A stretch of DNA of 64,000 nucleotides from a virus. Positions 9,615 through 48,355 of this stretch are shown here, piece by piece. A program made the position numbers and the translations under genes. The stretch lies in IMG/VR virus record IMGVR_UViG_3300044615_000294, positions 27,342-91,341 of that record; one strand, 5' to 3'. Below the pieces are notes generated by a model. The model saw only the letters and a program-made list of their open reading frames with translations. It was not told where the DNA came from and ran no database searches. Positions within the stretch are counted from its first letter, which is position 1, and the number at the start of each line of letters is the position of its first letter.

Positions 9615-9624
9615 TCTATAGAAT

Positions 9625-10599: not shown

Positions 10600-10610
10600 A
10601 ATTAAAAATT

Positions 10611-11186: not shown

Positions 11187-11187
11187 A

Positions 11188-11907: not shown

Positions 11908-11921
11908 TAAAAACAAACAAA

Positions 11922-12614
11922 ATGGGTTTAAGTACAAAAGATCTAGTAAATGAGAATGGTGGTGGTGGAATGGCAAAAACTATTGCTCCAGGAAACCACA
12001 CATTAAAAATCAACAGTGTAGTGTTAGAAGACTTTCAATTTATTGATGGTGCAAAACACTTAGTACTAAATGTTGAAACAGAACCAATTGAAGGATTTGA
12101 AGGTTTTCTGATTGATAAAGATGATGAAAGCAAAGGAAAATATAAAGGTCAAATTGGTCGGGTAAAAGCTAGTCAATATGCATTTGCTGATGGACAAACA
12201 AAGTCTGGAATTAAAATTCAAAGAGATAGATCTTTGATGATGTTCTTGGCTAACTTGTCTAAGGCAACTGGAATAATGAAATGGTTTGAGGAGCAAGATA
12301 ACAAGTTTAATACAATTGAAGATTTTGTAAAGAACTTTAGTAACAATGCTCCACTTAAAGATAAGTATCTAGATTTTTGTGTTGCCGGTAAGGAATATGA
12401 AAACAAGTCTGGCTATACTGCATATGACATGTGGTTACCAAAAGCAGAAAACAATAAGTATGCTTATGGTGAAGAAGGTTCTGATAGAATTCTTAAGTAT
12501 GATGAAGCAAAGTATCTTAAGAAACTTGAGGTAAAGCCAGTAGATAACTTTGGTGATGATGATGATGACTTTCCAACACCAGGTAAAACATCTTCAGATT
12601 TTAGTTTAGATTAA
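11922..12614 (+). CDS. SSB-like single-stranded DNA-binding protein
   Basis: A 230-aa protein with a probable OB-fold (about residues 20-190) and a highly acidic tail ending in DDDDDFPTPGKTSSDFSLD, the usual arrangement of phage SSBs, whose acidic tip binds partner enzymes. It follows the Sak4-like gene by 14 bases with an A-rich leader. Sequence divergence in the OB domain prevents certain assignment, but the acidic tail plus the Sak4 neighbour support an SSB. A strong hairpin terminator follows. Confidence 0.75.
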   Translation: MGLSTKDLVNENGGGGMAKTIAPGNHTLKINSVVLEDFQFIDGAKHLVLNVETEPIEGFEGFLIDKDDESKGKYKGQIGRVKASQYAFADGQTKSGIKIQRDRSLMMFLANLSKATGIMKWFEEQDNKFNTIEDFVKNFSNNAPLKDKYLDFCVAGKEYENKSGYTAYDMWLPKAENNKYAYGEEGSDRILKYDEAKYLKKLEVKPVDNFGDDDDDFPTPGKTSSDFSLD

Positions 12615-31100: not shown

Positions 31101-31333
31101 ATCTTTTGACTGTAGCTTATCTCTTTAGGGAAACTTTTACCAATTTCTTCTTTAACTTTAGAAATTGGAACTAAACCTAATGCTTCTTTAACATTTTTAT
31201 TTTTAATGAAATCATTATAGCTAGGTGTTTCACTATTAAAAAATTCCTGAATAAGATTAGAGACTTTTGTTTCTCCAAAATCTTTTACCATTTTTTGTAC
31301 ATCAGGATCACCAAAGTTTAAACAGAATGACAT
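25106..31333 (-). CDS. Giant virion protein with zincin and LysM modules
   Basis: A 2075-aa protein, last of the three giant genes and probably an ejected virion protein, as in crAss-like phages where such proteins travel with the virion RNA polymerase. Residues 310-314 are HEFAH, a zinc-peptidase motif, with a downstream MREALVTSIE helix that may supply the third ligand. Long helical and coiled-coil regions fill the middle (about 450-1300). A LysM repeat (RGDTFESIAKRYN ... LEPGDKITV, about 1745-1795) should bind peptidoglycan or chitin-like glycans. A membrane-type segment (ENVGYFLLAMIIGSWYFG, about 1903-1925) follows. It could thus open or cross the cell envelope during DNA entry. No RNA polymerase motif was found in it. 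It is 5 bases from the next gene upstream. Confidence 0.85.
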   Translation of the reverse strand: MSFCLNFGDPDVQKMVKDFGETKVSNLIQEFFNSETPSYNDFIKNKNVKEALGLVPISKVKEEIGKSFPKEISYSQKISLMKAVSTKNNYNKANNISTVYMLYNLEQIGQADLNTWGLRKVKGKLDIEGKIERAQSRIVDATQSNKPVSDLENIIKTGAYIKPEFKEKTPEQELYEEEARKIQEEDAKRAGVDYTDDYLFGRNSEETLGVDPNITEAEFRRQAAIVTRMTAEEASADTYNAESERAIEIATTLADKLSDAMNVEWELVTPEAAEILLKNTATEYDGEPAFFFGNKVYFVEGNLSVDNVLHEFAHPLIKGIEQENPELFNNLYAELSMTPEGMDVIAYIERLYPKLQKGSKAFMREALVTSIERKGTAPSSAFKKFLDKLMFAIKKVIRKAFSPKVAAKINLNKLSQSTTLDQLANMLANEEFQIESFEIFNVNNPEFKKLESEVARRINELKGIPVERLQEEINRIYDNNMRQLNSLKQVPFKVKDLLVKSGGTKILNYIREELSKYQTVNVKAEDIDPENVIRAVEDIESETRLRALALTNSLNEIETFVESIEKILDDLTKVESQTNENISRVIYYKTSLQNQQVLLDKLKDLPLDKETLFYKTLNSIQNSVENANKKIAEIEFKFISDFFADETELMQDSIEKSLKERVGIILKAEGYSEEDVNNFIENVINTEDRETYTLKDLKLTDITPRRAKLVVKAVNEYMFKRLGKKQIEEYLRGERGDLSFYTAFITPYANMDDPIAGSFTRFVKTKIFEAQQAAQDQADEITYKLLPLLNAVGYQPYKTNQLGDMLLFLDKVGYVDNNGDFQEKEVWTFKNKFKNYRYDLAKLQNNFQEARAKNDKQAMKDAYQAIQDFEEKYMHRRYTKEFYDIQKIWNTGAVVTDPFTGQEITISPKIAFDSYVERQNALSKMNTLKNVNFLDLEDLYDFNDSEEQARLEYNRLFDIYNLQGEPKEGEELQRVLLRKKHRELSRNMYDYDIDSDRVQKDLDNFHNRLIAKGIDPEAEPKEGETKNEYQKQIDKFLRSNFKTAYTSKFYAERKRILEEIRKITAKVADKKSQIALDLAELYKTRFNLSTSTSDANGQPNGLNLSPEQINLLKKIEDEIVRLEEQFDRKTGLTKDQTSRYDSYIAKAAAGTQLTPEERKDYAEILSIKNEMGLTPAELAALKSRFAELRELESKIPTDYYLEAFNYAIRDMELPEMTTDNADKWINGENLVKALENPEFAKWYGRNHYQKEVYDVDLNRNVIKNFRIAAWTMKIPNNPDHYVVTEIIDPLTKTERKIIGRPAGKYTKSRIKSEFLTIPRGESWDNYVGTIVDNKGNYLPREYNIGDPNSAFDKKYQNEEYEEMKNAGGPEFDLLNAITESMIQIQKNKPVSSRLYLEMPRFRKRGNLEYVASGEAKENLIDRVGGFKGLWKTWFGKDVDDAEFGFNHDVNFNLVPTDLDGRPVNKVRIRGLYNLDQKRVSKDVLRGMYDYLLSLEEQKVLLENEPIAKALESVLSQNGIKDLTNIDQQEFQRTRKRKFLSKDDNRRLGAVKHQVKKIFYGKTTGTFDEENAWLTKIIQGLFRRSSRAFIAFDPQSAIKNRWGMLYQNAIYAAGGKNVTPMSLAKGYAKAKQSAMFWVFKDVYEQGIKSADIQLVERMDPTAMFGKNFGKSSSRSKLKDLADLTYAYDFRRTMELEAALEMFWGMMYNKYIPQAGSSEDIAYADAWETDDRGILKLKDGIDPMYDYKKVEHEYKRGDTFESIAKRYNITAEQVKKRSGITDISKLEPGDKITVGNMEGFLNMKFLLQSAQKKTTGLMDVFDTPQAEKYLGYRAFTFYKRFATGMFLDKYQIDTDKGNLGGYVYNWDTNTLDKGYYMNTMQNALRLIRSVGKDTAIMTEDEKAAAKKVIIENVGYFLLAMIIGSWYFGYDPDDEDKWKKLKARATTTQGQLENHLLYLLIMTKMENESFIPVYLPEQGTKYFKTTTIALDNTVVLYTKIGQDLYNIGAGNEGEARYSQDVGPYKWQRQGQYKLWNHLGSMYGLKGKNVIDLGIEGQENFDEGAIWAIKKYQMFENLK

Positions 31334-31338
31334 AATCT

Positions 31339-34300
31339 TTATCTTTTACATTTCATATAATAATCTAGAGCATCCATTATATCTAGATCTGGATTTTTAA
31401 CTTCTTCATTTGCAAACCAATCTTTAAACTCTTTTGAATTTAATACAATGGTTTTATTTTGATTTTCCAAAGTTAAATTATTTTCTTCTTCTTCTTGACT
31501 AAATAAATCTAATTGTTCTCCTGGTCCAGGTTTTTGAGTACCTCTAAGCTCTTCTCTAACTTCCATAAGTAATTTTGGAAACTCTTTACCCCATTTAGTT
31601 TTATCTTGAGTATGTGTAAGAGTAGCATTACCTGTAGCAAGTAATTTAGCAAGGGCATCTGGATTTTGTTCAAAAGAAAGTGTAAGTATATTTTTCATTA
31701 CTCCTGATGAATCTCTATCCCAAGTTGCAGTTGATAAATCTTTAATTTTAGCTCCTAAACTTTTTGCTTGAGCTCCAGTTGCAGTTTTTAATTTTTCAAG
31801 TATCTCTAAATTTTCTTTACTTGCAGGAGCACCTAATAAAACAGCATTTGTAAAAAATATTTTCATAGCTTGGAAAGCACCTTCAGGAGTTCTGAATGTT
31901 TGACCATTAAGCGTTACAGCTCTGTCAGCAAAATTACTTAACTCAGCATTTTCTCCTGTACCAGCATAAATATTGATTTTAATATCAGATCCTGGTAAAT
32001 TAGTACTAGGTTGAGTAGTAATTAGTTTATCAAAATTCTCATTAAATACTATATTAGAAGGTATTGGTCCTGCATTAATAAACATATCTGCCATTTCTTG
32101 ACCTGTATAACCATTAAGATTAGTTCCAGAGTAATCAGATACTAAAAATTCTTTAGTTGGATTTTCTTTAGCATACTCATACAACTTTTTAACACCCTCT
32201 ATAATTTCTTGAGGAGTTTTACTTTTCTTTTTTCCAGGACTAGTTACAGTAGTTATACCCCATGCTTTTCCTGAATCAGACAATCTATTATCCATTTTTT
32301 CACCTTGCTTAACACCAGCAATTCTGTATGCAACTAATGCTGCTCCTCCTGTACCTTTAGAAGGATTTCCATTAATACCAAGTGGATTAGAACCAAATAC
32401 AAATATTTGATTAGGCTGTAAACTTGTTACTTTTCCTGAATAAGTTTTTCTTTCAGTAGGTTGAGTAGTAGGTGCAGTAGCTTTTCTCCAAGTACCGATA
32501 GGTTGACCATCAATTTTTATCTCAGAATAATTATATCCTTTAGCTTCAAGATTTTGATACAATCTTTTTTCACCAGTATTATAACTACTTGAATCTATGT
32601 AAGCTTTATTATCTGTAAGAATAGTAGCTCCAGCTTCTATGGCTTTAATTGCTTCTCTGATAGTTTTATCTTGTTCTCTTTTAACAACGGTTGCATCACC
32701 TCTTAGTCCAGGAACAGATACAAAGATTACATCTGTACCACTATATTTACCAGTATTTGCTAAAGTACCAGCTTGTTCTCTATAGATCTGTGTAGTACTA
32801 CGTTTACCATCTTTACCAACTATACCTTCTCCAAAACCAATAAACTGTGTAGCTATGCTCGCTTTTGTTACAGCTTTAGCATCTTTAACTCCCGCTTGAG
32901 GAATAACTGTAAATCTGTCTTTCTTTTCAAATGTTGGAGTAGTAGATACAAATGCAGCTGATACAAAGTTTTTAAAGATTCTATTTCTAGGATTCATACT
33001 TATATTAAATACTCTATCCATGTATCTTTGTTTATCTTCAAAGTTTTGGTTGTTAAAGTCTACTGCTGCATTATTCATAATTGCAACATAGTCTTCAAAT
33101 GGTAAGATTTCATTAAAACCAAATCTACTATACCCTACTCCATTCTGATATACTGCAACAAGTGGTAGTGCACGGAACATGTCACTGATGTACTTATTTT
33201 GTATTGGATCAGCTACTTTAGATACATTAGGATCAGCTAGATCTTTAATGTTTTGATAGTATTGTTCTGCCACATTTCCTTTACTTAATAATCTAGAATT
33301 ATTTAAAGTAAGAATTTTCTGACCATCTTTAACTTCTGGAATAGATAGTTGTGATAATAAACTATATTTATCTTTTAACTCAGGATGTTGATTTATAATA
33401 TCAAAAATATCTTCTGCAAATGAGTATCCTGTATTTTGGAAGAACACATCTTTTGTAAAGTATTTAGCTAAAATATCTGAAGGAATGTTTAACAAATCTT
33501 TTTCAGATTGTACATACCCCACCATATAATTTTGGAACACAGAATTAACCATGTTATTTTTTATATCAGATATGAATGTTTCAGTATCACCAAATCTTTT
33601 TACTATTTGAAAACTATTAGTCTTTATAAGACTTATAATGATATCACTTATGTCTTTTGAATTTCTTAATGGAAACACTGGCTGTACTAAATCCTGAACA
33701 ATTTGATTGTCAAAAAATGTAGATAAGATAGATTCTTTTCTTAAAGCTTTTACTACTTTACCTTCTACTCTTGAGTCATTTTCAATTTCATCAAGAAGTA
33801 CATTTCTATTAATTACTTGCTGTAAAGTTTTAGATATTGCAGTATCCGGATTAGATAATCTCATTAACTCTTGGTATCCTGAGAACTGTTTTTCTAATTC
33901 TAATACATGAAGTAATGTAGCAATTTGATGATCTCTAAATTTAGGGTCATTTGGATTATCAAGAATTTTATTTAAATCTTCAATATTAAATTGCCCATCT
34001 TCATTTAAGATGTTACCTTTTTCTATAAGAGCGTCTAATGCTTTTTGTTCTTCTCTAACTAACTTTGGTGCTTCTTTTGAATCAACAATAAATTTTGATA
34101 ACACTCTAGCTGCTGCAACTTCTTTATCAGGAATTTTTATTTCTAGACCACTTTGACTAATTTTAGTTCTAGGTATACCGCTGTTGTCAGTAATAAGATC
34201 TGAGTAAGAACTTTTTAAAAGTCTTTGTTCTTTTGCATACTCCCTTACTAATGGTTGTGACAAAAACTTAATTGCATATTCTCTTGTAACTCCTGACTTA

Positions 34301-37300
34301 AATAACATAGCCATTAACCCAATCATTTCTTCATTACCTTGGATAAAGAATATCCATGCATTTTTCTCAACATCCACAGAACCATTCATTAATTGTGAAT
34401 ATAGTTCTGATATTAAATCTCCATCTACTGTAGTAATATCTGAAAGTGATATTCTACCATCTTTAGTTTTATTATGAGGTAATAATATTCTTGATTCTCT
34501 TCCTTTTTGTTTTTTATAGGTGTATGTTTTAGGCATTGCTGCACCTAAAGTATTTAGTACCGGGTGTAAAGCATTGTAGATAGCTACAATACCCAATACC
34601 CTCTTACCAATCATATTTGCTTCATGCTTGTGTAAGTTGTATAATGGCTCTAATACTCTAGTGGGGCTAATAGCTTTTTCACCTTTTGTGTTTAGTCTTC
34701 TATCTTCACCATGATAGTTTTTAAATCTATCATAGTCTGTTACCTTGTCTTCTAATTTATCTGCCAATTCATCTTTCAAAAGATATGTAGCATTTGGTCT
34801 AACAAGAGATGCATAGTTCTCTGGTAAACTAAGTATGTTAGATAGGCTAGTAATTAGTTTATTCTCTAAAGCTGCCTTTTGAGTACTCAGTAATCTAGCA
34901 GTCATTTGCTTTCCTTCTTCTGTATCTTTATTTTGATCAATAAGATTTTGAAGTCTCTCATTAGACATTGCTGATTCTATAAACTTTCCAGATTTATCCA
35001 ATGATGGCATAAATGTAGTAAGTTTATCAACGTCAAAGTCAGCTCCTGACTTAGCAACTATTTCTGATGGTGGTATAATAATTGGACCAGCAGCCTCATC
35101 TAAGAACTCATATACTTCCATATATTCCATAGAGTTAAGGCCTTGCACAGGAATCCTAACAGCAATCATGGTAATTGCTTTTCTATTAGCTCCATCATTT
35201 GCATTTAACCATTCATCATCTTTAATAGCCTGGTTTAGCCTTTCTCTTGTACCAATTTTTTCCCCTTTGTAATCTAAGTTTAAAAGATTAACAAAGTCTC
35301 CCTGAAGAGCAATAGCAACTTTCATTGCTGAAGTTCTATCTTTATCATAGTTATAGAAAGGTAAGTTATTAGTTCCCATGAACTTTCTTACTTGTTCTAC
35401 ATCAGCTTTATCAAATTGAATTTGATTATCCCAGATACCATTAGTCATTGCACTAGATACCTGTACTAATGCTTCACCTTTGATTTTTTGTCTTACTAAT
35501 CTTTTTTCAATTAATGAAACAATAATTTTTTCAATCTCATCTGCTCTTAAATGGAAAGATAAATCTGTTTTCAAAGAGTTATCTGGATTCATATTGATAA
35601 ACTCAATATGGTGTTCTGGGATATTCTTTCTACCCAACTCTCTTTGTACAAGCTCTAAGAAGTTTTTAAAATTTCCAATGTATTTACCATCTTCAAACTT
35701 ATAACCAATCTCATTAAGTAGTTCCATTTTTAAGAACTCACCATATGCATCTACTGCATCTTCATAATCTTTAACTAAAACTTGATTTTTAACTGTAAGT
35801 TCACCATTTCTATATAAGTTAGATAGGATAAGTTTTCTTAACTGAGTAGCAAATACTGTTTTGTTTTTATAAGATACAGGAACTTTAGTAACATCTTTAA
35901 GATACTCAAGGTATACTGTGTTTGGAGTAAACTTAATATCTGTCTTTAATGATTTTTGTTCATCATCATTATAAATTTTATCAGCTACTGCTTTTCCTTT
36001 TTCATTAACCTCAGATGTAACACTACCAACTTTAGAACCAGTCTGGAAAGTAACATACTGAATGTTTTCCTTAATCATTTGCTTATGTAAAGATTCTAAA
36101 TCAGAATTCTTTATCATTGATGGAATAAGAGGAGCTAAGGCAAACTTATGCATTGCCATTACTGGTAGTGATGTATTAGCCAAGTGTCCAAAATTTTGCA
36201 CTTTATATACCGGGAATGCTTCAATAATATCAGAATACTTAACAGGTTCTTTTCTTATTACCTTTACATATAATTGTTCTTGTAAATCACTCCACTGGTT
36301 AGATGCAATTTTAAGATTTCTATAAGCATCAAATGTAATCCATCCTTGACCATCTCCTTCCTCCATTTTTCCATAAGGCTTAAGATCCTGAGCCACACGC
36401 ATTTCTACTTCCTCAGATAGTTTATCAGCTGGAACTTTTCCTTTAAGTCTCTCTGTATAATCTTTTCTTAATTCTCTTTCAATTATAGGAGAATAAACAG
36501 ATTCTCTCACAATATCTTGAATAATGGCAGAATTAAATTTACCTGTGTAAGCAAGAGTTTCTAATCCTTCTGCTTGTGCATAAGATAATTTACCATTCAA
36601 TCCAGTTAAATAATTTCTTATTGACTGATCTGTTCTAATCTTTAATCCACCAGAAGTTCCACCAGAGTTTCTCTTGTGCATCTCTTCTTTTTCATGATTG
36701 TATTGTACAATATCACCATAGAATAAAGTAGCAGTTTCAAAATTTTGTACCCAAGAATTTACTGCATAAGCAGAAATTAAAACTTCTTCAGCTTTCTCTT
36801 CACCAAGATTAAATACAGCTAGTTTATCTAAAAGATCTGGGCTCAAATATTTAGCTTCATTGTAATAGTTTTGTAAATCTTTAACTTGATCAGTAAAATA
36901 TGTAGTAACTTCATCTAAGATCTTTTTATATAGATCTGGATTAGTTTTAATGTAATCTTCAAATCTTACATTAGGATTTGTTACTGCAGCTAATATTTCT
37001 TCTTTAGTATCTTTTGTTAATACATTATCAAATGCAGTAAAGTTTTCACCGGCCATAGTACCATCTGCAAGTTCTCTATTGTATCCAGCATATGTCTTAA
37101 ATAAATCTCTATTTGTTTTAAATTTATTTATTCTTTCTAACTCACCAGCAATGTATGGGATCATGTGATTTTTAACAAGATACTCATATGCATTACCTGT
37201 TGCAAATTTATCTGTGTCTACCCATAATCTTGTATCTTCACCTTTACCAACACCACCTAAAATACCACCTTCTCCATCTATTCTAGCTCCAAAAGATGAT

Positions 37301-40300
37301 GACTTAGATGCATGTCTCATAAACTCTATCATACCACCTTTAAGCATACTGTGTAGTTCTTGTAAGAACTTACCTCTAGCATCTAATGAGGTTGTATTTG
37401 TTCCATCCTCAATTGCTTCTACCTGAGTACCTGAGTTTATAAATAGCTGTAAAGATTTTCCTGTTCTTTTAGCCCAGTTGTATACACCATCTTCTGTATC
37501 ATTTTTATCAAACAAAGTATTGATAATACCAAGTCTAGTAGTAAATGAATTAATTAATGGATTTAAATAACTCATATATTCAAACTCACTACCTGGTGTC
37601 CACGCCTCTGATAAATTTTGCATTTTATTCAGAGCATATGTTATATAACTTATAGTGTGATCATCTATATGTTCAAATACAAGATTTTTTTCTGCATTTA
37701 ATACTGCAAAGTTTGCAGAGTCAAAACCATACTTAGCTTGTAAACCAAGAATTCTATCTATAGCATTCTTTTGTCTTACTACTTTTTCAGAAATAGTACC
37801 TGCACTAAATCCAGAACTTAACTTACCAATTGGATCTAACAAAAATTCATTTATTTCATCTGCTGTTTTTTGTGTTGTCTTTGGATTCTTCATTGCTTGA
37901 TCTATATCATACATATTTCTATAAATATATATTAGACCATACATTTGTTTAGCTCTCTGATTTAGATTCAGTTCATTTTTAATAATTGATAAATCATCTA
38001 AATATAAACCTATTGCTCTTGCAAATTCATAAGCTCTATTAGAATCTAATTTTCCATCTTTACCAAATTCTTCTACAACATCTGCAACTTTTAAGAATGC
38101 AACATTTTCTGCAGTTCTTCCAATGAATTTATTTTCAAGATCACTTTTAAACTTAGATTGAAACTTACGCATTAAGCTCATTGTTTCAATTGAAGCTTTA
38201 GTAACTTCAGCAATGTTATTATCAAATACTGTAGTTTGTAAATAAGTTACTCTTGTTTTTTGAAAGTCTTGCCAGAATGAGGTTAGAGTATTTACTTCAA
38301 ATCTATTTCTCTCATTAATAACAATCTTACCATCTTGAATTGTGTATCCCGGAAGCTTTCTTAGTAACTGTTTGAATTCTGGATAAATTGTTTGTGCAGC
38401 AGTTCTAATATTTTCAAGCATTTTAGATGGATTCTTTTCTCCATTAATAGCCCGAATAGTATTATTCCATGTAGTTGCAAAATCTGCAAGCTCTGGGTAC
38501 CCTAATTCATTAAGTACTACTTTACCGTTTTGCATTTTATGTAAACTGGATAATAAAACAAGAGTCTCTGAACTTGCTAAATCCAATAAAGACTTAGTTT
38601 GAGTATCATCTTTTATACCTAAACTTTCACCTTCAGGAGTATTTGTTTTTGGATTGCTGTTTCCTGTTTGAGATTGTGTAGTTGTATCATCTGCCTCTTC
38701 ATCTACCGCTTCTTTAAACTTTTTGTTTAGGATTTTATAATCACTATTCTCATTATGATATGCAATTACTCCTGACTTTTTATCACCCCAGTTTTTAAGT
38801 GCAGTTTCAAATATTCTTATTTTATTTTCAAGCTTTTCAATTTCTAATGCCTTAGTAGGATCATCTTGTATTTTTTCTAATTCTTCTTTAGCCGTATCTA
38901 ATTTATTTTGAAAATCTACTTTAGCTTCAGCATATATTTTTTCTTTAGCGTTTTCATTTGTAAAGATTCTTATAGTTGCCTCTTTAGTACCAGCTTCTTC
39001 AGAGTATTGATCTGCTCTTAATGAGAAGAAAGAGTCAATACTTTGTGATACAAGATTACTATCCTGTTTATCTAAAGCATCAATTGAAGTTTCAGATATA
39101 TCTTCTATACCTCTATTAAGTTCCTGAAAGTTGAATGTATTAACAAGCGGAGAATATTTATTTAAAAACTTCTGGCTATTCTTTTTATTCTTACTTGCTA
39201 AGTATAACTCATTAAAGAGTTTATCTTTAGTACTTTTAGATTTAAATAGATTATTTAAGAAGTTTAAAATCTTTCTAAATATACTATTTCTTTTAGGTGA
39301 GTTAGCTTTAACACCTTGTTCTTTTGCATAAGTTCTAAATTCTTCTGCAAGATATTCCTCAAGTTGTCTATATGTAGCTTCACTAAATTTAACTTTGGTA
39401 CCATCTAATAGTGTAAAGCTTCCTTTTTGTTTTGCAACTTCATCATATAGTGCCTTTCTTTCAGTTGGATTTAAGAATAACTGAGTAAATCCGTGCCATG
39501 CTTCATGGTATACATCTACTATACTACTTCTCTGACTAATTTGAATTTCACCATATTTATTATTTAACACAGATCCGTATGCAATAAACTTTGCATAAAC
39601 ATCTGAGTTAACTATGTTCACCATTGTCTTGAAGTCAATGAATTTAGAAAGTGGAGAATTGTTCCACCAAGTCTCTGCATTCTTTATATCTTCTGGAGTT
39701 ATATTTTCTAAACCTAAATTTTTACCGGATCTGTACATTTTATCATCATCAAACAAACTACCAAGACCTCCTTTTTCTGGTTCTGGTGTATTTTCAGGCG
39801 CAATAATATTATCTCTTTCTTCTTTTGGTGTTTTAACAACTGGTTCTGTAGCTGTCTCTATTTCAGTATCTTCCACAGAAAGTTCAGAAGGAATGCTAAA
39901 CTTAATATATGTGTTATAAAATCCAGGATCTGTGCTTTCAGATATTTTAATGTTTGCACCATCTAATGTTTCTAATAATGGAATATAGGGTGCATTATAT
40001 TCATCACTAAGTTCTCCTGTTTCTAAATTATAATCTCTATAAGCGTTTCTTGATAAAACATCTACATTATAAGTCATTTTAGCGGGATAAGGTTTACCCT
40101 TTCTACTATCACCTTTTGCATATCTTAAAACATCATATACTAAATCATATTTGTTATTTAGTTCATCATTTAATAAGGTATATGTAGCACCTGTTCCATC
40201 ACTATATGTTTTTTCAGTATACTGAAAAGTAAGTGCGTCTGTTCCAGCATTATAAAGTAATGTGTGTCTTCTTGCTGTCATTGCAGCTTTATCAGAAAGA

Positions 40301-41655
40301 AATTGATTTACAAAATCATACTTTTGTTTATTAGATAGTTTAGGATTTGTAAGGACTGACGTTATCTTTTGTATTAAAACTTCAGATAAATCTGGTTTAT
40401 CTAAAGGGTATATTTTACCATTTAATGTAATTTCCGCAGATATATTAGATCCTTTTTCAATTACTGGTGTAATAGTTTTAAATGTTGCATTGTTTACAAA
40501 AGGAAGAGACCTTAAGTTTTTTAATGATATTTTCTTTTGTGCTAAGCTTTCTGGAACACCCGCACTTAATTCAACAACATTTAGAGGGTTAATCTTTTGT
40601 TTATTTATGACAGCTTGTTTTACTTCATACAATTGTTTTAATTCTTCTTGTTGAAGTTTCTTAGCTTCTTCTACAGTAATCTCTAATTTTTCTGCTACCA
40701 TTTCTGGTGTTTGAATTTGATTACCATAACCATATTGATTTAAAGCATCATATTCTCCAGCAGCATTTTTATTTACGTTTCTTAAAAACTGATATACTAT
40801 CTTACCACCTTCTTCTTTAGTAGTAAATTCCCCCTCTTCTGTAAAGTGATAGTAGTTTCCTTCTTCATCTGATAATACTAAAGCAATTCTGTTTTGTGTT
40901 TCAACACCCTCTGGTCTATTTACATTAGTTATTGATTTAGTTCTAACTACATCTTGAGCAGTAGTGTTATCAATATCTGCTTGGTTTGTATCATAAAGAT
41001 CTAATAATCTAACAGGAGTCAGCTTTAATACTTTACCGTCAACCACTAATGTACCATCAGTTACTACAGCTTGCTCAGCACTAATTTTACCTTGTATTTT
41101 TTCTATAGTACTATAGATTCTATTTTTATTAGCATCCGGCTTTTCACTTAATAATTTTAATTTATTATTTGGGTTAAGTTGTATAAGTTGCTGGAAGGTA
41201 GTACTAAGCCAACCAAATGGTCTAAATCTAAAAGGATCTTTTATCTCTTTAGGATTTTCAATTTCAGTAGGTAAGCTTGAGATAAATTGGTTTGCTACAA
41301 GTAATTCCAGTTTGTCTTTATCAGACATCTCTGGTTTAAAATAGTTTAGTACATTCTTGAAACCATCCTTTTCATTTTTAAAATCTACAGCTAATGATTT
41401 TAATGCATCCACAGAAAAATCTAAAGCATCAAACTGTGATTTTACACCAACAGCTCTCATAATACCAGGTGCTTGCTGTAAAAATTTCATTGCTGTTGCA
41501 ACATCTTTTTTCTCAGCAATTTGTGTAAATAAATTTTTCATGTAGTTATTAGCATTAAAAGGCTCATTAGCCTCTAATGAATTCAACATGTTTTTATATA
41601 CATCTTTATATAAGTTCTCTACTTGAGTTGGTGATAATGCGCAAACTATTTTCAT
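31339..41655 (-). CDS. Giant virion RNA polymerase with ADP-ribose-linked C-terminal modules
   Basis: A 3438-aa protein. The double-psi barrel signature is at residues about 2175-2220: RIPVQGLNSMEYM, then KSGADFDVDKL with D2206, D2208 and D2210 as the metal-binding loop (classical form DFDGD). This identifies the crAss-like virion RNA polymerase, delivered into the cell to transcribe early genes. HEAWH (717-721) with a later LEEYLAEEF is a zincin-like module. After the polymerase, about residues 2960-3060 form a Rossmann/SLOG-like region (VIFVSVPGLRGDATVV, IEAGATILTD), 3065-3210 a macro-like phage domain (FVFGSNPLG, GTGGAALVA), and 3225-3375 a NADAR domain (ELSNFADR, TPEGAFQAMK, LLATGNATLTHT, LLMEVREEL). 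NADAR proteins remove or bind ADP-ribose. Cargo delivery is inferred from the family. Confidence 0.88.
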   Translation of the reverse strand: MKIVCALSPTQVENLYKDVYKNMLNSLEANEPFNANNYMKNLFTQIAEKKDVATAMKFLQQAPGIMRAVGVKSQFDALDFSVDALKSLAVDFKNEKDGFKNVLNYFKPEMSDKDKLELLVANQFISSLPTEIENPKEIKDPFRFRPFGWLSTTFQQLIQLNPNNKLKLLSEKPDANKNRIYSTIEKIQGKISAEQAVVTDGTLVVDGKVLKLTPVRLLDLYDTNQADIDNTTAQDVVRTKSITNVNRPEGVETQNRIALVLSDEEGNYYHFTEEGEFTTKEEGGKIVYQFLRNVNKNAAGEYDALNQYGYGNQIQTPEMVAEKLEITVEEAKKLQQEELKQLYEVKQAVINKQKINPLNVVELSAGVPESLAQKKISLKNLRSLPFVNNATFKTITPVIEKGSNISAEITLNGKIYPLDKPDLSEVLIQKITSVLTNPKLSNKQKYDFVNQFLSDKAAMTARRHTLLYNAGTDALTFQYTEKTYSDGTGATYTLLNDELNNKYDLVYDVLRYAKGDSRKGKPYPAKMTYNVDVLSRNAYRDYNLETGELSDEYNAPYIPLLETLDGANIKISESTDPGFYNTYIKFSIPSELSVEDTEIETATEPVVKTPKEERDNIIAPENTPEPEKGGLGSLFDDDKMYRSGKNLGLENITPEDIKNAETWWNNSPLSKFIDFKTMVNIVNSDVYAKFIAYGSVLNNKYGEIQISQRSSIVDVYHEAWHGFTQLFLNPTERKALYDEVAKQKGSFTLLDGTKVKFSEATYRQLEEYLAEEFRTYAKEQGVKANSPKRNSIFRKILNFLNNLFKSKSTKDKLFNELYLASKNKKNSQKFLNKYSPLVNTFNFQELNRGIEDISETSIDALDKQDSNLVSQSIDSFFSLRADQYSEEAGTKEATIRIFTNENAKEKIYAEAKVDFQNKLDTAKEELEKIQDDPTKALEIEKLENKIRIFETALKNWGDKKSGVIAYHNENSDYKILNKKFKEAVDEEADDTTTQSQTGNSNPKTNTPEGESLGIKDDTQTKSLLDLASSETLVLLSSLHKMQNGKVVLNELGYPELADFATTWNNTIRAINGEKNPSKMLENIRTAAQTIYPEFKQLLRKLPGYTIQDGKIVINERNRFEVNTLTSFWQDFQKTRVTYLQTTVFDNNIAEVTKASIETMSLMRKFQSKFKSDLENKFIGRTAENVAFLKVADVVEEFGKDGKLDSNRAYEFARAIGLYLDDLSIIKNELNLNQRAKQMYGLIYIYRNMYDIDQAMKNPKTTQKTADEINEFLLDPIGKLSSGFSAGTISEKVVRQKNAIDRILGLQAKYGFDSANFAVLNAEKNLVFEHIDDHTISYITYALNKMQNLSEAWTPGSEFEYMSYLNPLINSFTTRLGIINTLFDKNDTEDGVYNWAKRTGKSLQLFINSGTQVEAIEDGTNTTSLDARGKFLQELHSMLKGGMIEFMRHASKSSSFGARIDGEGGILGGVGKGEDTRLWVDTDKFATGNAYEYLVKNHMIPYIAGELERINKFKTNRDLFKTYAGYNRELADGTMAGENFTAFDNVLTKDTKEEILAAVTNPNVRFEDYIKTNPDLYKKILDEVTTYFTDQVKDLQNYYNEAKYLSPDLLDKLAVFNLGEEKAEEVLISAYAVNSWVQNFETATLFYGDIVQYNHEKEEMHKRNSGGTSGGLKIRTDQSIRNYLTGLNGKLSYAQAEGLETLAYTGKFNSAIIQDIVRESVYSPIIERELRKDYTERLKGKVPADKLSEEVEMRVAQDLKPYGKMEEGDGQGWITFDAYRNLKIASNQWSDLQEQLYVKVIRKEPVKYSDIIEAFPVYKVQNFGHLANTSLPVMAMHKFALAPLIPSMIKNSDLESLHKQMIKENIQYVTFQTGSKVGSVTSEVNEKGKAVADKIYNDDEQKSLKTDIKFTPNTVYLEYLKDVTKVPVSYKNKTVFATQLRKLILSNLYRNGELTVKNQVLVKDYEDAVDAYGEFLKMELLNEIGYKFEDGKYIGNFKNFLELVQRELGRKNIPEHHIEFINMNPDNSLKTDLSFHLRADEIEKIIVSLIEKRLVRQKIKGEALVQVSSAMTNGIWDNQIQFDKADVEQVRKFMGTNNLPFYNYDKDRTSAMKVAIALQGDFVNLLNLDYKGEKIGTRERLNQAIKDDEWLNANDGANRKAITMIAVRIPVQGLNSMEYMEVYEFLDEAAGPIIIPPSEIVAKSGADFDVDKLTTFMPSLDKSGKFIESAMSNERLQNLIDQNKDTEEGKQMTARLLSTQKAALENKLITSLSNILSLPENYASLVRPNATYLLKDELADKLEDKVTDYDRFKNYHGEDRRLNTKGEKAISPTRVLEPLYNLHKHEANMIGKRVLGIVAIYNALHPVLNTLGAAMPKTYTYKKQKGRESRILLPHNKTKDGRISLSDITTVDGDLISELYSQLMNGSVDVEKNAWIFFIQGNEEMIGLMAMLFKSGVTREYAIKFLSQPLVREYAKEQRLLKSSYSDLITDNSGIPRTKISQSGLEIKIPDKEVAAARVLSKFIVDSKEAPKLVREEQKALDALIEKGNILNEDGQFNIEDLNKILDNPNDPKFRDHQIATLLHVLELEKQFSGYQELMRLSNPDTAISKTLQQVINRNVLLDEIENDSRVEGKVVKALRKESILSTFFDNQIVQDLVQPVFPLRNSKDISDIIISLIKTNSFQIVKRFGDTETFISDIKNNMVNSVFQNYMVGYVQSEKDLLNIPSDILAKYFTKDVFFQNTGYSFAEDIFDIINQHPELKDKYSLLSQLSIPEVKDGQKILTLNNSRLLSKGNVAEQYYQNIKDLADPNVSKVADPIQNKYISDMFRALPLVAVYQNGVGYSRFGFNEILPFEDYVAIMNNAAVDFNNQNFEDKQRYMDRVFNISMNPRNRIFKNFVSAAFVSTTPTFEKKDRFTVIPQAGVKDAKAVTKASIATQFIGFGEGIVGKDGKRSTTQIYREQAGTLANTGKYSGTDVIFVSVPGLRGDATVVKREQDKTIREAIKAIEAGATILTDNKAYIDSSSYNTGEKRLYQNLEAKGYNYSEIKIDGQPIGTWRKATAPTTQPTERKTYSGKVTSLQPNQIFVFGSNPLGINGNPSKGTGGAALVAYRIAGVKQGEKMDNRLSDSGKAWGITTVTSPGKKKSKTPQEIIEGVKKLYEYAKENPTKEFLVSDYSGTNLNGYTGQEMADMFINAGPIPSNIVFNENFDKLITTQPSTNLPGSDIKINIYAGTGENAELSNFADRAVTLNGQTFRTPEGAFQAMKIFFTNAVLLGAPASKENLEILEKLKTATGAQAKSLGAKIKDLSTATWDRDSSGVMKNILTLSFEQNPDALAKLLATGNATLTHTQDKTKWGKEFPKLLMEVREELRGTQKPGPGEQLDLFSQEEEENNLTLENQNKTIVLNSKEFKDWFANEEVKNPDLDIMDALDYYMKCKR

Positions 41656-41659
41656 CTTC

Positions 41660-44600
41660 TTAACAATCTAAGTCATCTAATAAATTATCTCTTGTATCTT
41701 CTTTTTTAGCTTGATCTTCTAAATCTTGTTGTCTAGAAGCAGCATCTTTGCCATATAATAAATCTGAAACAGTATCTGTAGATTCTTGAGTAACTCCTTC
41801 ACTCTCATCAACTACAGGACCATCTGTTTCTTCTCCACTAAACAATGTAGCTGCTGGTTTAAATTTCTTTTTAAATTCTTCTACACTCATTTCCATTTTA
41901 GTTCTTTTACCTTCTGGTTTAACAGTTATTCTATCTCCGGAAATTTGTGATATAACTGCTGTTTGATTAGCACTTAAAAACTTCCTTCCATTAGCTGTAA
42001 AGATATCACTTTCTGAGTAAACTTGATCACCTTCATTGTAAGTAATTATTTCCCCCTCTTCAGTTTCATCCTGTACTTTTAGAGATTCTTTTCTTGCTTC
42101 TATTAAATTATTTAATTCTGCAATCTGTTCTGCTGAATATTTTAAACTATTCATTGCAAGATCAACCATAAGAAGTTGTAACTCATCAAAGTCTGCTTTT
42201 TCAATTTTAGATTTTAAAGCATTAAACTCTTTTAAATTATTTGTTTCTCCACCTTCTTCCCCTTCTGGGTTTTCATCTTCATAATCTGTGTTTTCTACAT
42301 CATCTAGATTAGGATCAGTGATTATATCCTCAACAGTATTAGATGGTACTGTACCATTAAACTTAGGTGCTGTCTCAGGTATCTCAGCATTAAGCTTATC
42401 ATACATTTCTTGAGTTGGCTCTAAAGGAAATATAGTTTTACCTTTCTTTAATAGAGTTGGAGCACTAGGTCTTTTTGCAGTAAGAATTTTACCAGTTGTT
42501 ATATCTGAAGTAGTTTCAATAGGTATGATAGCTATCTCAGCATCTATACCAAACATATTTTTCAATAGTCTAGCATATACCATTTGTTGATAAGTATTCT
42601 CAATTTGTTTTGCGTAGTTCTTATTTTCAGAATTATTATAACCATTCCATTTGGCTGCCTCTCCTGTTTTAATATCAACAATTGTAAAATTACCTTCTCT
42701 ATCAACAAGAAGTAAGTCAATTTCTCCGGCTACATTTGCATCTTCATCATATACTATAAGACCATTTGCAACAACAATAAAATCACCTGTATCTATATAG
42801 TCTTGTATAGATTGATAAATACCATTTCTTCCATATAAACTATCAAATGCTTCTTGTGAAATTTTATTTAGATCTGGTTGAACTTTTTCACCACTAAAAT
42901 ATTTTTTAGTTAAGTCATCAATTACATTACCTCTATCTCTACCCCACTGGTAAGTAGCTTGTTCTGTAATAAAATTAATTGTTGCATCTCTTAAACCTTC
43001 TAAATCATCTTCTGGAGCTTTTGTTGTTTCAGGTAGTTTAACAAGTTCTTCATTAATCCATTTTTGTTGATTTGGAGTAATTTTATTTGGATTACCATTA
43101 TAAGCAGATCTTTCATTCCACTCTTCAAGTATATTGTTTAACTGTTCTTTAGAAGTTATTTTTTTAAGTCTAATTGCCTCAGTTAAAGCATTAAAGAATG
43201 CGAAGTTTAATCCCATAGTTGTACCACCAGAGATAGAAGAGTTTCTTATATTTTCCTCTGCCTTTCCTAATAACTCATTATAAGTTACTTCTTCTACATC
43301 AGCTTTAGTATCTGTAGAACTTTCCTTACTAGCTCTTTCAGAATCTAATCTTTGTTTTTGTTCTGGAGAAAGTCTATCCCACAGCTTAGGATTTTGTATT
43401 TTAGTATAATCTTCTGTTTCAATTAACTCTACAGTATCCCCTTCTTTTTCATATATTTCAGTTAACTCTTCAATATTTTTAGCTTTCAGTCTATCAAATG
43501 GACTCCAATTTCCTTTTTCATTTTTAATTTCCCATGTAGCAGAACCATCAAGAGAAGTTGTTACTCTAAGTTCACTAGTGTCTCCAGATGAATTAGTTAT
43601 TTTTACAGTTTCTCTTTTAACTGATATACGGCCATTATAATCATTTCTAGATGTAGCATCTGTAGAAGCAGGGGCCCTATTTGATCTAAAGTCATTTACA
43701 AACTTCTCTATAGCTTCATAAGATTTCTCATTAAATCCTGGAAGATTACTTGCTTTTAAAACATCAATAAAATCTTTAACAGATTGTCCTTCACCTATTG
43801 TTAAATTATAAGCAGCTAAAAGAACATCTTTTTTATCATATTCATATTTTTTACCCAAGAACTTTTGAATAACATTTGTTACCCTTCTAAGAATCTTCTG
43901 ACCAATTTTATATCCGGTTGGTAATGCTTCTATTCTTTCTTGTTCTTTCTGTAATTGATCAATTAATGCAAGAGCATTTTGCATTTCAGGTGTAAGAGAT
44001 TTACTAACTCTGCTCTTAACATAAGCTTCTAATATTGAATACTTTTCTTGTAGCTCTTTTAATCTTACCTCATCATTTATAGATTTGTTTTTAGTATTCT
44101 CTATAGCATTGATTTCAAAATTATATTGTTGTAGTACAGATTGAATTTGTTTATCAGTAGCATTCTCTGCTGATATTTTTTTACCATTAGTTAAAGTAAT
44201 CAATGGTGCAGCGGCAGTACCACCAGTTGTTGCAGCTTTTAACTTTTGTTCTTTTATGTACTCGTTAATAAGATCTAAAGCTTGCGGTTCACTTTTAATA
44301 AAGTTTACAAACTTATTTTCTAACTCATCATTAGTAAGGTTGTCTGGAAATAAATATTCATTATTTGGATCATCCCTATAGTCTTCAAATGCTGCTTTAA
44401 GTTGTTCTCTAAGTTCTTCAGGCATGTTTGCAATAGGAGTATCTGGAGTAAGTTCATCTATAGAAACTATACCACCTTCTACAATAACATTAGATGTTGC
44501 TGCTATTGATCCTTCTGCTGCCTCTGCTCTAAGTTGATCATACTTATCCTTAATTGCTTTAACTTCTACTGGATCTGGTTCTTCTCTATATGCAAAAAGT

Positions 44601-47600
44601 TTCCCGTCAGTAAGTTTAGCACCTATGTTTCCAGCTATTTGTCCTTGATTATTATTAAACTTAATGTTCCCATCACGATCTTTATAGAAAATAAGTTTCT
44701 CTTGAATACCATCTGGATTTATATAAGTAGCTTCTAAGTACTGATCAATCCCAATTTTGTCTTTAACAGAGTTAAGTGTAAATTCTTTATTTTCAATTAC
44801 ACCAAGTTCTTTTCTTACATTATACTTTTGAAGCTCATTAATTTCTTGTTGCTCCAATGCATTTAACATCTTTAAGTTTTCTGCAAGTTTTTGTTCTGGA
44901 GATTTTCTTTTTTCTTCTTGATTATTAAGATAATCCAATAACTTAAATTGCCCTACTGCTTGATTATATAATATACTACCTTTAGGAACTACTCTTTTAT
45001 TAATTGCATCATAAAACTCTGTAGGAAGTTCACCGTTTAATTTCCAGTTTGCAAACTCTTCAAGATCAACATATATACCTTCAGAAGCCAAAGAATTTAA
45101 TAAGTTGTTATACTGAATTCTTTTTGTTTGCTCTAGTATATTTTTTCTAAGCATGTCTTCTCTGTTGCTCCAGAGATCAGACATCCAAGCAAAATTATTT
45201 TCTACATGTTCTTCAAAACCTGCAGGGTCATTTAATATATTAATAGCTTCTGCAGTTTTCTGCGCTTCTTTACCTAATCTATAATAGTCTACAAGCATCT
45301 CAAATGCTTGATCCATATTACCCTCTAATAAAGTTTCATTGCTTTGATTAGCTAGAGACTTCATATACTTTTTGAATGAGCCTTCTAGATTAGCTAACAT
45401 CTTCTCATTAGTAAAATCCATAGTAGATTCTACATCAGTATTAAGATCTTCTATTTCTTTTTCTAAATCAGAAATGTTTCTTTCTATTCTTTCAATTTCT
45501 ACTTCTCTAAACCGAGTATCTTTTGTGTACTGATCATAGTACTCAGGAGATGAAATATTATTTTTTCTTTCATTTAACTCATCAATCTTATTGTTAAGTT
45601 CAATGATTCTACCCTTTTTATTTTTTAACTCTTGTCTTTCTTGAGTTCTTGCTTCATTTTTTTCAAACTGTTGAAGTCTAGTTTCAAGTCTTTGCTTTTC
45701 TCTTGTAAGTCTTACCTTCTCAGCGTTTCTTGGCTTAGCTTTTAACTTAGCATCAATGTCAGAAATTTGTGATTCTATAAACTGTACTTCATCATCTTCT
45801 TGAGACCTTGCAGTCTTATAGAAATGATTCATGAATGTGTTATAGTTTTCTCTAAACTCTTCCAAAGCTTTTAAAGATTCTTTTCTTCCAGCCAGTTGTT
45901 TTTTAGAACCTGGATCTGTTGAACCTTCTAGAGCTTCAATTTCTGTTTTAAGCATTCCTATTTCCCCATCTAAATCATTTTCATCAAATAGGGGTTGTAC
46001 TCTTAATGGATCTACTTTACCTATTAGTTCATTAGATGTCATATATCTATAGACTTTTTGCATTCTGTCTAAAGTACCTTTATAGTTATCATTATAGAAT
46101 ATAACATTCCTTACTGCCTCATCCCAAGCTGTTGAGAATAATGCTGCTTTTTGATATTCTACTGAACCTTTCTTATAGTCATTTAGATCTACTGGGTTAG
46201 GATACATTTCCTTAACCTCATCATAGTTCTTAACAATGTTTTTTGTTTTATCTATTATGCGATCTATTTTCTCTGTGTGCCCTTCTGCTTGCTCTAAGGT
46301 TATTCCTTGATATTCAGCATACTCTTCTGTTGTAAGAGTTTTGATATTCTCTAAATGGTCTAACCAAATGTCTGTAGCACCTAGCTCAATCATTTGAGAT
46401 ATTTGTTTTACAGTAGCTTCTTCAATAGCATCTTGTTTTGCTTTTGTATCTGGATCAGCAATTTGATCAGCAAGTTTAGATTGTACACCAAGATTATATA
46501 ATCTTGCGTTGTACATGTTTAAAGGGTCATTAGCAAAACTATCACTAACCTGTTTTGCCATTTGCTCATTATATTCAGCAAGCTTTTTTCTAGCAGCATC
46601 ATACTTGGCTTTATTTCTAAATCTACCAGCTTGTTCTTGAATAAATGGTAATGCTTTATTTAATGGGGTCGCTAATGTACCCATTGCAAAACCTGAAAGA
46701 AATGTCTCAAAACCTCTTCCACTAAGTTGTTTTTTACCTTCCATATCTAAAACAAATTCTCCTCTTGCATTTGTTTCATATACTTGTGCTTGAAAGCCTT
46801 CACCTAAATGCTCCCAAAAAGATTTATCTTCTTTGTTTTTTTTATTTAAGAATGCTTCTGTATAGTAATAAGATGAAACAGGTTCTGAGTAAAATGCTTC
46901 AGTATAATAATCCTTAGAGGTTTTTGAAATCACATCTTGTAATGATTCTTGTACACCCTCCATTATATTTGCCTTGGTGTAACCAATTACTTTTCCAGCA
47001 GTTTTTTGAAAGCCTTGTTTCTTTATTGCTTGTACAGTTCCTTTCCAACCTTTCCAACCTCTTTTAATTGTTGAAAGTTTAGGAGTAAGAACTTCTTTAC
47101 CTGTCTTAAGTGTTTTCTTTGTAAACTCTCTCACAGTTCTACCCGCCATATTTTTTTTAACATCAGTAATTTTCTTATTTAATATTCTGTTCAATCCTTT
47201 TTTAGGAGACATGATATTATCAAAAGCAACTTTGTTTGATGCATATATTAAAATTCCATTAGCAAGCAAAGCACCTTCTGATGCTTCTTTTGCTTTTCTG
47301 CGCATTTCATCTTGAATTTCTTCTGGTGGATCTTGCCCACCATGAGTTTCTCTATACTCATCATATAACTGATCAAAGGTATCTTTTCTAACAAAACCAG
47401 CTTCTAGTCTTGCTTCTGAAAGAGCCATATTAACATTTCTAACATCTCTATATAAACCTCCTACAGTTTTAAATGTAGCTGCACTTGCTTTTTCTAATCC
47501 AGTTAGATTTTTAGAATTTTTTGCAATATCTATTATAGCTTCAGTTGTATTACTCAATGGATTAAAAAAATCTAAAACTTTTCCACCTGTCGTCTTTCCA

Positions 47601-48355
47601 ACCTTTTCTGCATTTCTTGCAACATTACCTATTGATCTATCAACTTTTAATGACTGCCAATAATTTCTTGCATCAGTAATATTATCTAATTTTTTTAATG
47701 TTGACCCCAACTGATTAGTTCTTTGTAAAATGCTTTCAGTAGCTAAAATACCTTTACCAACTTTTGGTGCACGACCAACATATTTAATACCTCTTGTTAA
47801 ATTTTTACCAGCATTAAAGATAGTATACTCACTACTCAAACCTAATGTTAAAGCTTCTTCAGCTACAGCTTCTAACATTATACCTGCAGTATATCCAAAG
47901 TTTGTTAATAGGTTAGTACCAAATCCAGTTAATCCCCCTTTGGTAGATGATGCAATTGCTGATGCTTCAGCATATGCAGCAGCTTCTTCCGGGTCATCAC
48001 TAAAATCACCCTTCATCATTCTTGCTAAACTATTTGGTCCAGAAGCAAAGCCTCTTGCAAATAGCGGGGCAAAACCATGCACAATAGATCTTTGAAATTC
48101 AGCAGCAGTTCCTGTACCTTCATTAAAGATTTTTTCATTGCTTTTAAATGGTGAAAATCCTATTCTTTCAAATGTCTCAGGACCATAAGCGTAATACCTT
48201 TTAAAATATGAATCACCTTTACTTCCAGCATTATAAGCATATGGAGTTAATTGGTCATTAGGATTATATAAACGCATTTCATTATCAAGTATTTTACCTG
48301 ATGATTTATCTGCTATCTGCTCAAATTTTTTATTAAAATCTTCAATACCCGGCAT
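41660..48355 (-). CDS. Giant virion protein with RecB-like nuclease domain
   Basis: A 2231-aa protein, part of the giant trio. The N-terminal region (about 60-350) is Gly/Ala-rich with hydrophobic helices, suited to membrane contact during ejection. A long coiled-coil block spans about 800-980. Near the C-terminus is a PD-(D/E)XK nuclease of the RecB type (about 1788-1938): GEIDLLL with D1880, IVDIKTG with D1894 and K1896 (D-x13-D-x-K), then YQQMVYARLLKN as the QxxxY helix. The C-terminal tail is Glu/Asp-rich. The nuclease would enter with the genome and may attack host DNA or process phage DNA ends. Four bases separate it from the RNA polymerase gene. Confidence 0.83.
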   Translation of the reverse strand: MPGIEDFNKKFEQIADKSSGKILDNEMRLYNPNDQLTPYAYNAGSKGDSYFKRYYAYGPETFERIGFSPFKSNEKIFNEGTGTAAEFQRSIVHGFAPLFARGFASGPNSLARMMKGDFSDDPEEAAAYAEASAIASSTKGGLTGFGTNLLTNFGYTAGIMLEAVAEEALTLGLSSEYTIFNAGKNLTRGIKYVGRAPKVGKGILATESILQRTNQLGSTLKKLDNITDARNYWQSLKVDRSIGNVARNAEKVGKTTGGKVLDFFNPLSNTTEAIIDIAKNSKNLTGLEKASAATFKTVGGLYRDVRNVNMALSEARLEAGFVRKDTFDQLYDEYRETHGGQDPPEEIQDEMRRKAKEASEGALLANGILIYASNKVAFDNIMSPKKGLNRILNKKITDVKKNMAGRTVREFTKKTLKTGKEVLTPKLSTIKRGWKGWKGTVQAIKKQGFQKTAGKVIGYTKANIMEGVQESLQDVISKTSKDYYTEAFYSEPVSSYYYTEAFLNKKNKEDKSFWEHLGEGFQAQVYETNARGEFVLDMEGKKQLSGRGFETFLSGFAMGTLATPLNKALPFIQEQAGRFRNKAKYDAARKKLAEYNEQMAKQVSDSFANDPLNMYNARLYNLGVQSKLADQIADPDTKAKQDAIEEATVKQISQMIELGATDIWLDHLENIKTLTTEEYAEYQGITLEQAEGHTEKIDRIIDKTKNIVKNYDEVKEMYPNPVDLNDYKKGSVEYQKAALFSTAWDEAVRNVIFYNDNYKGTLDRMQKVYRYMTSNELIGKVDPLRVQPLFDENDLDGEIGMLKTEIEALEGSTDPGSKKQLAGRKESLKALEEFRENYNTFMNHFYKTARSQEDDEVQFIESQISDIDAKLKAKPRNAEKVRLTREKQRLETRLQQFEKNEARTQERQELKNKKGRIIELNNKIDELNERKNNISSPEYYDQYTKDTRFREVEIERIERNISDLEKEIEDLNTDVESTMDFTNEKMLANLEGSFKKYMKSLANQSNETLLEGNMDQAFEMLVDYYRLGKEAQKTAEAINILNDPAGFEEHVENNFAWMSDLWSNREDMLRKNILEQTKRIQYNNLLNSLASEGIYVDLEEFANWKLNGELPTEFYDAINKRVVPKGSILYNQAVGQFKLLDYLNNQEEKRKSPEQKLAENLKMLNALEQQEINELQKYNVRKELGVIENKEFTLNSVKDKIGIDQYLEATYINPDGIQEKLIFYKDRDGNIKFNNNQGQIAGNIGAKLTDGKLFAYREEPDPVEVKAIKDKYDQLRAEAAEGSIAATSNVIVEGGIVSIDELTPDTPIANMPEELREQLKAAFEDYRDDPNNEYLFPDNLTNDELENKFVNFIKSEPQALDLINEYIKEQKLKAATTGGTAAAPLITLTNGKKISAENATDKQIQSVLQQYNFEINAIENTKNKSINDEVRLKELQEKYSILEAYVKSRVSKSLTPEMQNALALIDQLQKEQERIEALPTGYKIGQKILRRVTNVIQKFLGKKYEYDKKDVLLAAYNLTIGEGQSVKDFIDVLKASNLPGFNEKSYEAIEKFVNDFRSNRAPASTDATSRNDYNGRISVKRETVKITNSSGDTSELRVTTSLDGSATWEIKNEKGNWSPFDRLKAKNIEELTEIYEKEGDTVELIETEDYTKIQNPKLWDRLSPEQKQRLDSERASKESSTDTKADVEEVTYNELLGKAEENIRNSSISGGTTMGLNFAFFNALTEAIRLKKITSKEQLNNILEEWNERSAYNGNPNKITPNQQKWINEELVKLPETTKAPEDDLEGLRDATINFITEQATYQWGRDRGNVIDDLTKKYFSGEKVQPDLNKISQEAFDSLYGRNGIYQSIQDYIDTGDFIVVANGLIVYDEDANVAGEIDLLLVDREGNFTIVDIKTGEAAKWNGYNNSENKNYAKQIENTYQQMVYARLLKNMFGIDAEIAIIPIETTSDITTGKILTAKRPSAPTLLKKGKTIFPLEPTQEMYDKLNAEIPETAPKFNGTVPSNTVEDIITDPNLDDVENTDYEDENPEGEEGGETNNLKEFNALKSKIEKADFDELQLLMVDLAMNSLKYSAEQIAELNNLIEARKESLKVQDETEEGEIITYNEGDQVYSESDIFTANGRKFLSANQTAVISQISGDRITVKPEGKRTKMEMSVEEFKKKFKPAATLFSGEETDGPVVDESEGVTQESTDTVSDLLYGKDAASRQQDLEDQAKKEDTRDNLLDDLDC

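Follow-up and report, generated by a model that had tools for sequence, protein, structure and literature searches.

The window analyzed here is a 64,000-nucleotide stretch of viral DNA that encodes a giant RNA polymerase of the crAss-like phages, which rank among the most abundant gut viruses. The polymerase gene lies on the minus strand between the genes for two further giant proteins, A and C, and the end of its product carries a series of small modules. The relevant features are as follows.

41660..48355, minus strand: protein A, 2231 aa; its only cysteine is the last residue
41663..41665, minus strand: Cys2231 of protein A, facing polymerase Cys5
31339..41655, minus strand: giant crAss-like RNA polymerase, protein B of the chain, 3438 aa (ORF; DFDVD; tblastn)
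41641..41643, minus strand: polymerase Cys5, the N-terminal junction cysteine
35026..35040, minus strand: catalytic DFDVD motif, aa 2206-2210
32506..32922, minus strand: SLOG-like module (Rossmann-like, identity unproven), aa 2912-3050; conserved, fold searches not significant
32014..32445, minus strand: macro domain, aa 3071-3214 (phrog_2072, NF049995; fold match)
31534..31980, minus strand: NADAR domain, aa 3226-3374, with E3258, K3265 (+7), and H3348 conserved (PF08719; alignments)
31342..31455, minus strand: conserved C-terminal element, aa 3401-3438 (..KNPDLDIMDALDYYMKCKR), retained even where the preceding modules are replaced
31348..31350, minus strand: polymerase Cys3436, the C-terminal junction cysteine; Cys5 is the only other cysteine in 3438 aa
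25106..31333, minus strand: protein C, 2075 aa (LysM); its only cysteine is residue 4
31322..31324, minus strand: Cys4 of protein C, facing polymerase Cys3436

The polymerase ORF matches crAss-like RNA polymerase genes (tblastn), and it belongs with the crAss-like polymerase core: ten columns, including the DxDxD motif (here DFDVD), are invariant across 24 aligned relatives. The initial annotation had placed the end of this protein at 31339-32770, and both coordinates and frame are right, as this interval codes for the last ∼477 aa of the 3,438-aa ORF 31339-41655(-). Within the last ∼530 aa, the order is a Rossmann-like module (∼2912-3050), a macro domain (3071-3214), a NADAR domain (3226-3374), and the conserved end (3401-3438). 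Delivery of the polymerase in the virion, also proposed earlier, is probable by analogy, because the homologs in phi14:2 (gp66, the annotation of which derives from virion proteomics) and crAss001 (gp47, gp49, and gp50, which are virion cargo; PMC10172136) are virion proteins.

The NADAR domain claimed from the bare sequence is recovered by Pfam (PF08719, 42.8 bits over aa 3236-3359; curated cut-off 35.1 bits), by phrog_1017 (E 8.5e-16), and by a match to E. coli YbiA (PDB 2b3w; E 3.6e-6). Its catalytic residues are in place, with a Glu and a Lys seven apart (E3258, K3265) and H3348 of the last strand aligned with T4 gp30.3. Glu, Asp, or, in phages, His have been described at the NADAR position (PMC11543638, PMC11125620), and His is known as a replacement for Glu in phage NADARs (PMC11543638). 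The T-H-T sequence at this site had been read as a Glu-to-Thr change; that reading was wrong, and a degenerate NADAR is rejected with it, because the window spacing, L-x-H-[ST], is the same as in the “VLKHS” of T4 gp30.3, which makes T-H-T the site of a phage-type catalytic histidine and not a mark of decay. The putative activity of the window NADAR is the removal of ADP-ribose from guanine. NADARs, including one from a phage, strip ADP-ribose off guanine in DNA in vitro (PMC11125620); NADAR thereby undoes guanine ADP-ribosylation, and DarT stops phage DNA and RNA synthesis (PMC11543638, PMC11125620). The T4-type and YbiA NADARs are active, yet E. coli was not rescued by them from DarT1 (PMC11125620). 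A genome scan for a bacterial source of the window NADAR type gave three loci only. The NADAR encoded at one locus (L153, 1501-1953) shares 56% identity with the phage type; its contig is labeled as a Pseudomonadales MAG and may be a phage contig.

The macro-like module likewise holds up, as it is found by two family models over aa 3075-3214, phrog_2072 (E 4e-18) and NCBIfam NF049995 (54.5 bits; cut-off 45 bits), although these libraries label the family just “A1S_2505” (NF049995) or “unknown,” not “macro.” Its AlphaFold model (pLDDT 90) matches macro domains in Foldseek, including TARG1 and DarG, with a probability of mostly 0.97-1.0 but a modest E (2e-3) and a TM of 0.4-0.6. The module may bind or hydrolyze ADP-ribose. 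The preceding SLOG-like module is a real conserved unit (11 copies aligned) and is modeled confidently, but its identification as SLOG is not confirmed: for aa ∼2912-3050, Pfam and PHROG searches returned no match, fold searches gave nothing significant (best E 0.035 in the PDB and 0.018 among viral models, methyltransferase-like), and an hhalign profile comparison with a cpYpsA-type SLOG module was also without a match. At best, the module can be termed Rossmann-like.

A total of 131 loci, some of which share a contig, came from IMG/VR searches that used the tail, the core, or the NADAR domain as query. The initial annotation regarded the tail as accessory, and this view is sustained, because the polymerase core persists in relatives while modules come, go, or swap. 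The tail is not universal in crAss-like polymerases: the 75 tails recovered by core-based searches span 64-1,539 aa (median 262). In the NADAR-only search, the domain shares an ORF with the polymerase core at 22 of 26 loci and lies in the adjoining piece of a split polymerase at one more. Across pairs of relatives, core identity and module identity are nearly uncorrelated (r 0.17 for NADAR, 0.18 for macro). The window macro domain, for example, shares 92% identity with its counterpart in L008, with cores just 22% identical, and the window NADAR is 90% identical to that of L114 at a core identity of 30%. Conversely, L022 has a core 96% identical to that of the window and a tail that diverges after the first module until the last ∼40 aa.

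Exchange at a defined site is visible in several close pairs. L095 has an AlkB-like 2OG-Fe(II) oxygenase at the site where L096 has a NADAR, and the two are 92-97% identical elsewhere; L114 and L126 are ∼99% identical outside the NADAR domain, to which the difference is essentially confined. The cr112_1 protein corresponds to crAss001 gp50 (97-100% identical) plus a macro domain of ∼150 aa that follows aa 60. A macro insert is present in the isolate Kolpuevirus “frurule” but not at the corresponding place in cr126_1 (proteins 87% identical), whereas cr126_1 has an N-terminal NADAR absent from frurule. The site varies among relatives between N-terminus, middle, and C-terminus, and two close relatives (L024, L031) lack all of the modules. 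A Pfam census of 67 tails, chosen irrespective of modules, found SF1 helicase (∼9), AlkB-like (6), cpYpsA SLOG (4), kinase (2), NADAR (2), RNase H (1), and ART (1) modules; NADAR, with two tails, is therefore in the minority, and the majority of short tails carry none of these modules. ART-PolyVal was seen in polymerases that also carry NADAR or AlkB, in the L119 tail (9065-12088) above the cut-off and in L095 (3311-4228) below it, and may be a toxin-like counterpart to the erasers.

The polymerase is accordingly a scaffold: its catalytic core and terminal residues remain constant, while small enzyme domains enter, disappear, or replace one another at the C-terminus and at a handful of further positions. 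An end of the form ..KNPxLDxxxALDYYxxCK is shared even with the distant polymerase of L010 (core identity ∼23-25%). This element (..ALDYYxxCK) was considered as a general packaging tag and rejected, being present in a subset of polymerases only. The sole invariant column among the 67 tails is the terminal Cys.

In the window, protein A, the polymerase, and protein C together contain four cysteines in 7,744 aa, all at facing ends. The other listed proteins of the window have 87 cysteines in 11,875 aa, a rate at which ∼57 would be expected in 7,744 aa. Protein A (41660-48355) also has a match to a PD-(D/E)XK nuclease near aa 1870-1934, weak and below the cut-off (19.6 bits).

The same arrangement recurs among relatives. 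A Cys lies within the last nine residues in all 104 polymerases of a set with complete ends, thinned of repeats, in which Cys makes up just 0.058% of residues; complete polymerases mostly have exactly two, one at residue 3-6 and one at the end. At the junctions between neighboring proteins in IMG/VR relatives, 179 of 183 are paired, two have neither Cys, and two are apparent mismatches, counts that represent non-independent events, given the relatedness of the loci. By type, Cys is present on both sides at 65 A|B junctions (neither side at 2), at 98 between B and the next protein (1 mismatch), and at 16 between a link protein and the next (1 mismatch). One mismatch, in L110, involves a 190-aa ORF that is perhaps not the true neighbor; in the other, in L065, the Cys sits at position 10. 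Exactly two cysteines, one per end, are present in each of 15 additional link proteins (165-859 aa). For several of these, the homologous stretch in other phages is part of the polymerase itself, and a new break therefore brings a new Cys pair. Link proteins between the polymerase and C are encoded, for example, at L028 13683-14456, L037 14055-14852, L104 18080-18577, and L017 8066-10654.

Named phages follow the pattern. In phi14:2, the cysteines are C1797 of 1797 in gp67, C3 and C2179 of 2180 in gp66, and C3 in gp65; in crAss001, they are C2339 of 2341 in gp47 (the gene for which is on the opposite strand), C5, C1334, and C2404 of 2412 in gp50, and C5 in gp49. In the Suoliviridae cr118_1, cr10_1, cr4_1, and cr56_1, A and B seem to be one protein, the N-terminal Cys is absent, and the C-terminal Cys is kept; C starts with Cys in cr118_1, cr4_1, and cr56_1, the three of these in which a C protein was located. 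In the Intestiviridae cr11_1, jaberico, and cr271_1, the first protein ends in Cys, and the polymerase has Cys3 and no C-terminal Cys. Apparent A-B and B-C fusions, as read from gene size and order, thus lack the corresponding Cys pair. An exception is cr273_1, with its last Cys ∼50 residues from the end, and certain members of the Steigviridae and Suoliviridae also have internal cysteines. The embedded SLOG-like, macro, and NADAR modules conform as well, with no Cys in 6,646 aa (48 modules). The polymerase and its giant partners are therefore Cys-poor with one Cys per facing end, however many pieces the chain has. The unrelated virion polymerase of phage N4, gp50 (3,500 aa; L157 24-10526), and the N4 proteins gp51 and gp52 have zero Cys, so low cysteine content alone is not specific, and junction cysteines are ruled out as a generic trait of ejected polymerases. 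A Cys-free body may be general for ejected polymerase cargo; junction pairs are not.

On balance, we lean toward a reading in which these proteins form a disulfide-linked cargo train, the polymerase carrying exchangeable erasers of nucleic-acid lesions inflicted by defense. The end cysteines would link A, polymerase, and C head to tail by disulfides in the virion, and the linked proteins would exit through the tail as one ordered train. The nearly Cys-free body would cross the envelope without mispairing, and the reducing cytoplasm would release the linked proteins. Erasers borne by the polymerase would be present before phage gene expression and next to the template, allowing transcription-coupled lesion removal: NADAR would take ADP-ribose off guanine, macro might take it off thymine or another acceptor, and AlkB-like modules may remove alkyl groups from phage nucleic acid. 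Such lesions would be placed by host defenses such as DarT, and the modules would swap as the defenses encountered change.

The gut is anoxic, which counts against a disulfide train. In crAss001, the cargo is expected to traverse a channel under 50 Å partly unfolded, and disulfides are present in the tail; the text of that paper does not mention a disulfide between gp47, gp49, and gp50 (PMC10172136). The tail disulfides might have arisen in purified virions. Thioredoxin is annotated in some Crassvirales records (“TRX” in jaberico, and cr108_1; L146 29818-30093, L147 31990-32259), an annotation potentially relevant to the proposed redox linkage.

Other functions for the modules and the cysteines can be weighed against the same observations. 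It is possible, if somewhat unlikely, that the modules are anti-signaling enzymes that destroy NAD-derived messengers or toxins (cADPR variants, ADPr-1''P), with the polymerase merely a vehicle. Anti-signaling has been proposed for phage Macro, NADAR, SLOG, and Nudix proteins, with head-packaged versions noted, and Iyer et al. argue that phage Macro and NADAR mostly act on small ADP-ribose derivatives (PMC9503650); delivery as virion cargo would be consistent with such a role. However, AlkB-like, helicase, RNase H, and kinase modules occupy the same slots, with AlkB (L095) and NADAR (L096) at one slot, which would favor nucleic-acid substrates over small messengers.

We doubt that the terminal cysteines are metal ligands or packaging or anchoring tags instead of disulfide partners. 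A conserved end residue might bind metal with its neighbor, or dock the cargo in the capsid, but the cysteines occur pairwise and at facing ends only, with none at the outer ends of the chain; fusions lose the pair and link proteins gain one Cys per end, whereas a tag would be independent of the number of pieces. A service to transcription itself, such as the processing of NAD-capped or ADP-ribosylated 5' ends of phage RNA, would suit modules covalently joined to a polymerase, and we consider it quite improbable: L024, L031, and crAss001 gp50 (compared with cr112_1) do without them, so that they are dispensable for transcription, and their position in the protein varies. That the terminal Cys codons are a nucleotide signal at gene junctions, where genes usually adjoin with short gaps, is barely credible, since the A genes of crAss001 and frurule are on the opposite strand with the C-terminal Cys still present, the codon may be TGT or TGC (87/12 for the C-terminal Cys of the polymerase), and the position is variable.

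The disulfide-linked train, if it exists, would have wider consequences. There is perhaps an even chance that the Crassvirales virion carries its transcription proteins joined covalently in a train that reduction can cleave, an undescribed modular injection system to which wagons, be they link proteins or eraser modules such as NADAR and macro, can be added if the end Cys and the Cys-free body are kept. The cysteine rule bears on how crAss-like phages move giant proteins through a narrow tail, and yields a direct prediction for the existing isolates phi14:2 and crAss001. Module exchange, in turn, supplies natural near-isogenic pairs (crAss001/cr112_1 and frurule/cr126_1) for the putative role of virion-borne ADP-ribose erasers in overcoming host defense.

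The novelty rests on the cysteine-junction pattern, not on the module tail by itself. To our knowledge, a chain with cysteine junctions matches no known system. We found no report of the polymerase fusion or the cysteine rule in the literature searched, mostly non-subscription papers. One account, in which crAss is unmentioned, has phage Macro, NADAR, and SLOG domains typically occurring on their own, with SLOG also fused to helicases and other partners (PMC9503650); Yutin 2021 treats large multidomain transcription proteins, and its text names neither NADAR nor macro (PMC7886860).

Among known systems, the closest are phi14:2 gp66 (PDB 6vr4) and crAss001 gp50, which share with the window polymerase the DxDxD motif, giant size, and partner proteins; phi14:2 gp66 has 2,180 aa, whereas the window polymerase has 3,438 aa with macro, NADAR, and Rossmann-like modules. 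The N4 virion RNA polymerase is a single-chain enzyme of the T7-like family. As a ∼3,500-aa polymerase ejected into the host, N4 gp50 resembles the window type, but it is without junction cysteines. DarG has the macro fold in common with the window module, which differs in being fused to a polymerase. The NADAR antitoxins linked to DarT1 share the NADAR fold and the Glu/Lys spacing with the window domain, which, unlike them, is fused to a polymerase and has a last-strand His in place of Asp/Glu, as in phage gp30.3. Polyvalent proteins of phages and conjugative elements, a class attributed to Iyer et al. in 2017, are reportedly long, co-delivered with DNA, and composed of ART, helicase, and other enzyme modules. 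The crAss-like polymerases likewise present a multi-enzyme array, with several unrelated enzyme modules per protein and the ART-PolyVal family in some tails, and their co-delivery is suggested by the homologs; what sets them apart is the scaffold, here a virion RNA polymerase in which filled sites have homologous empty counterparts.
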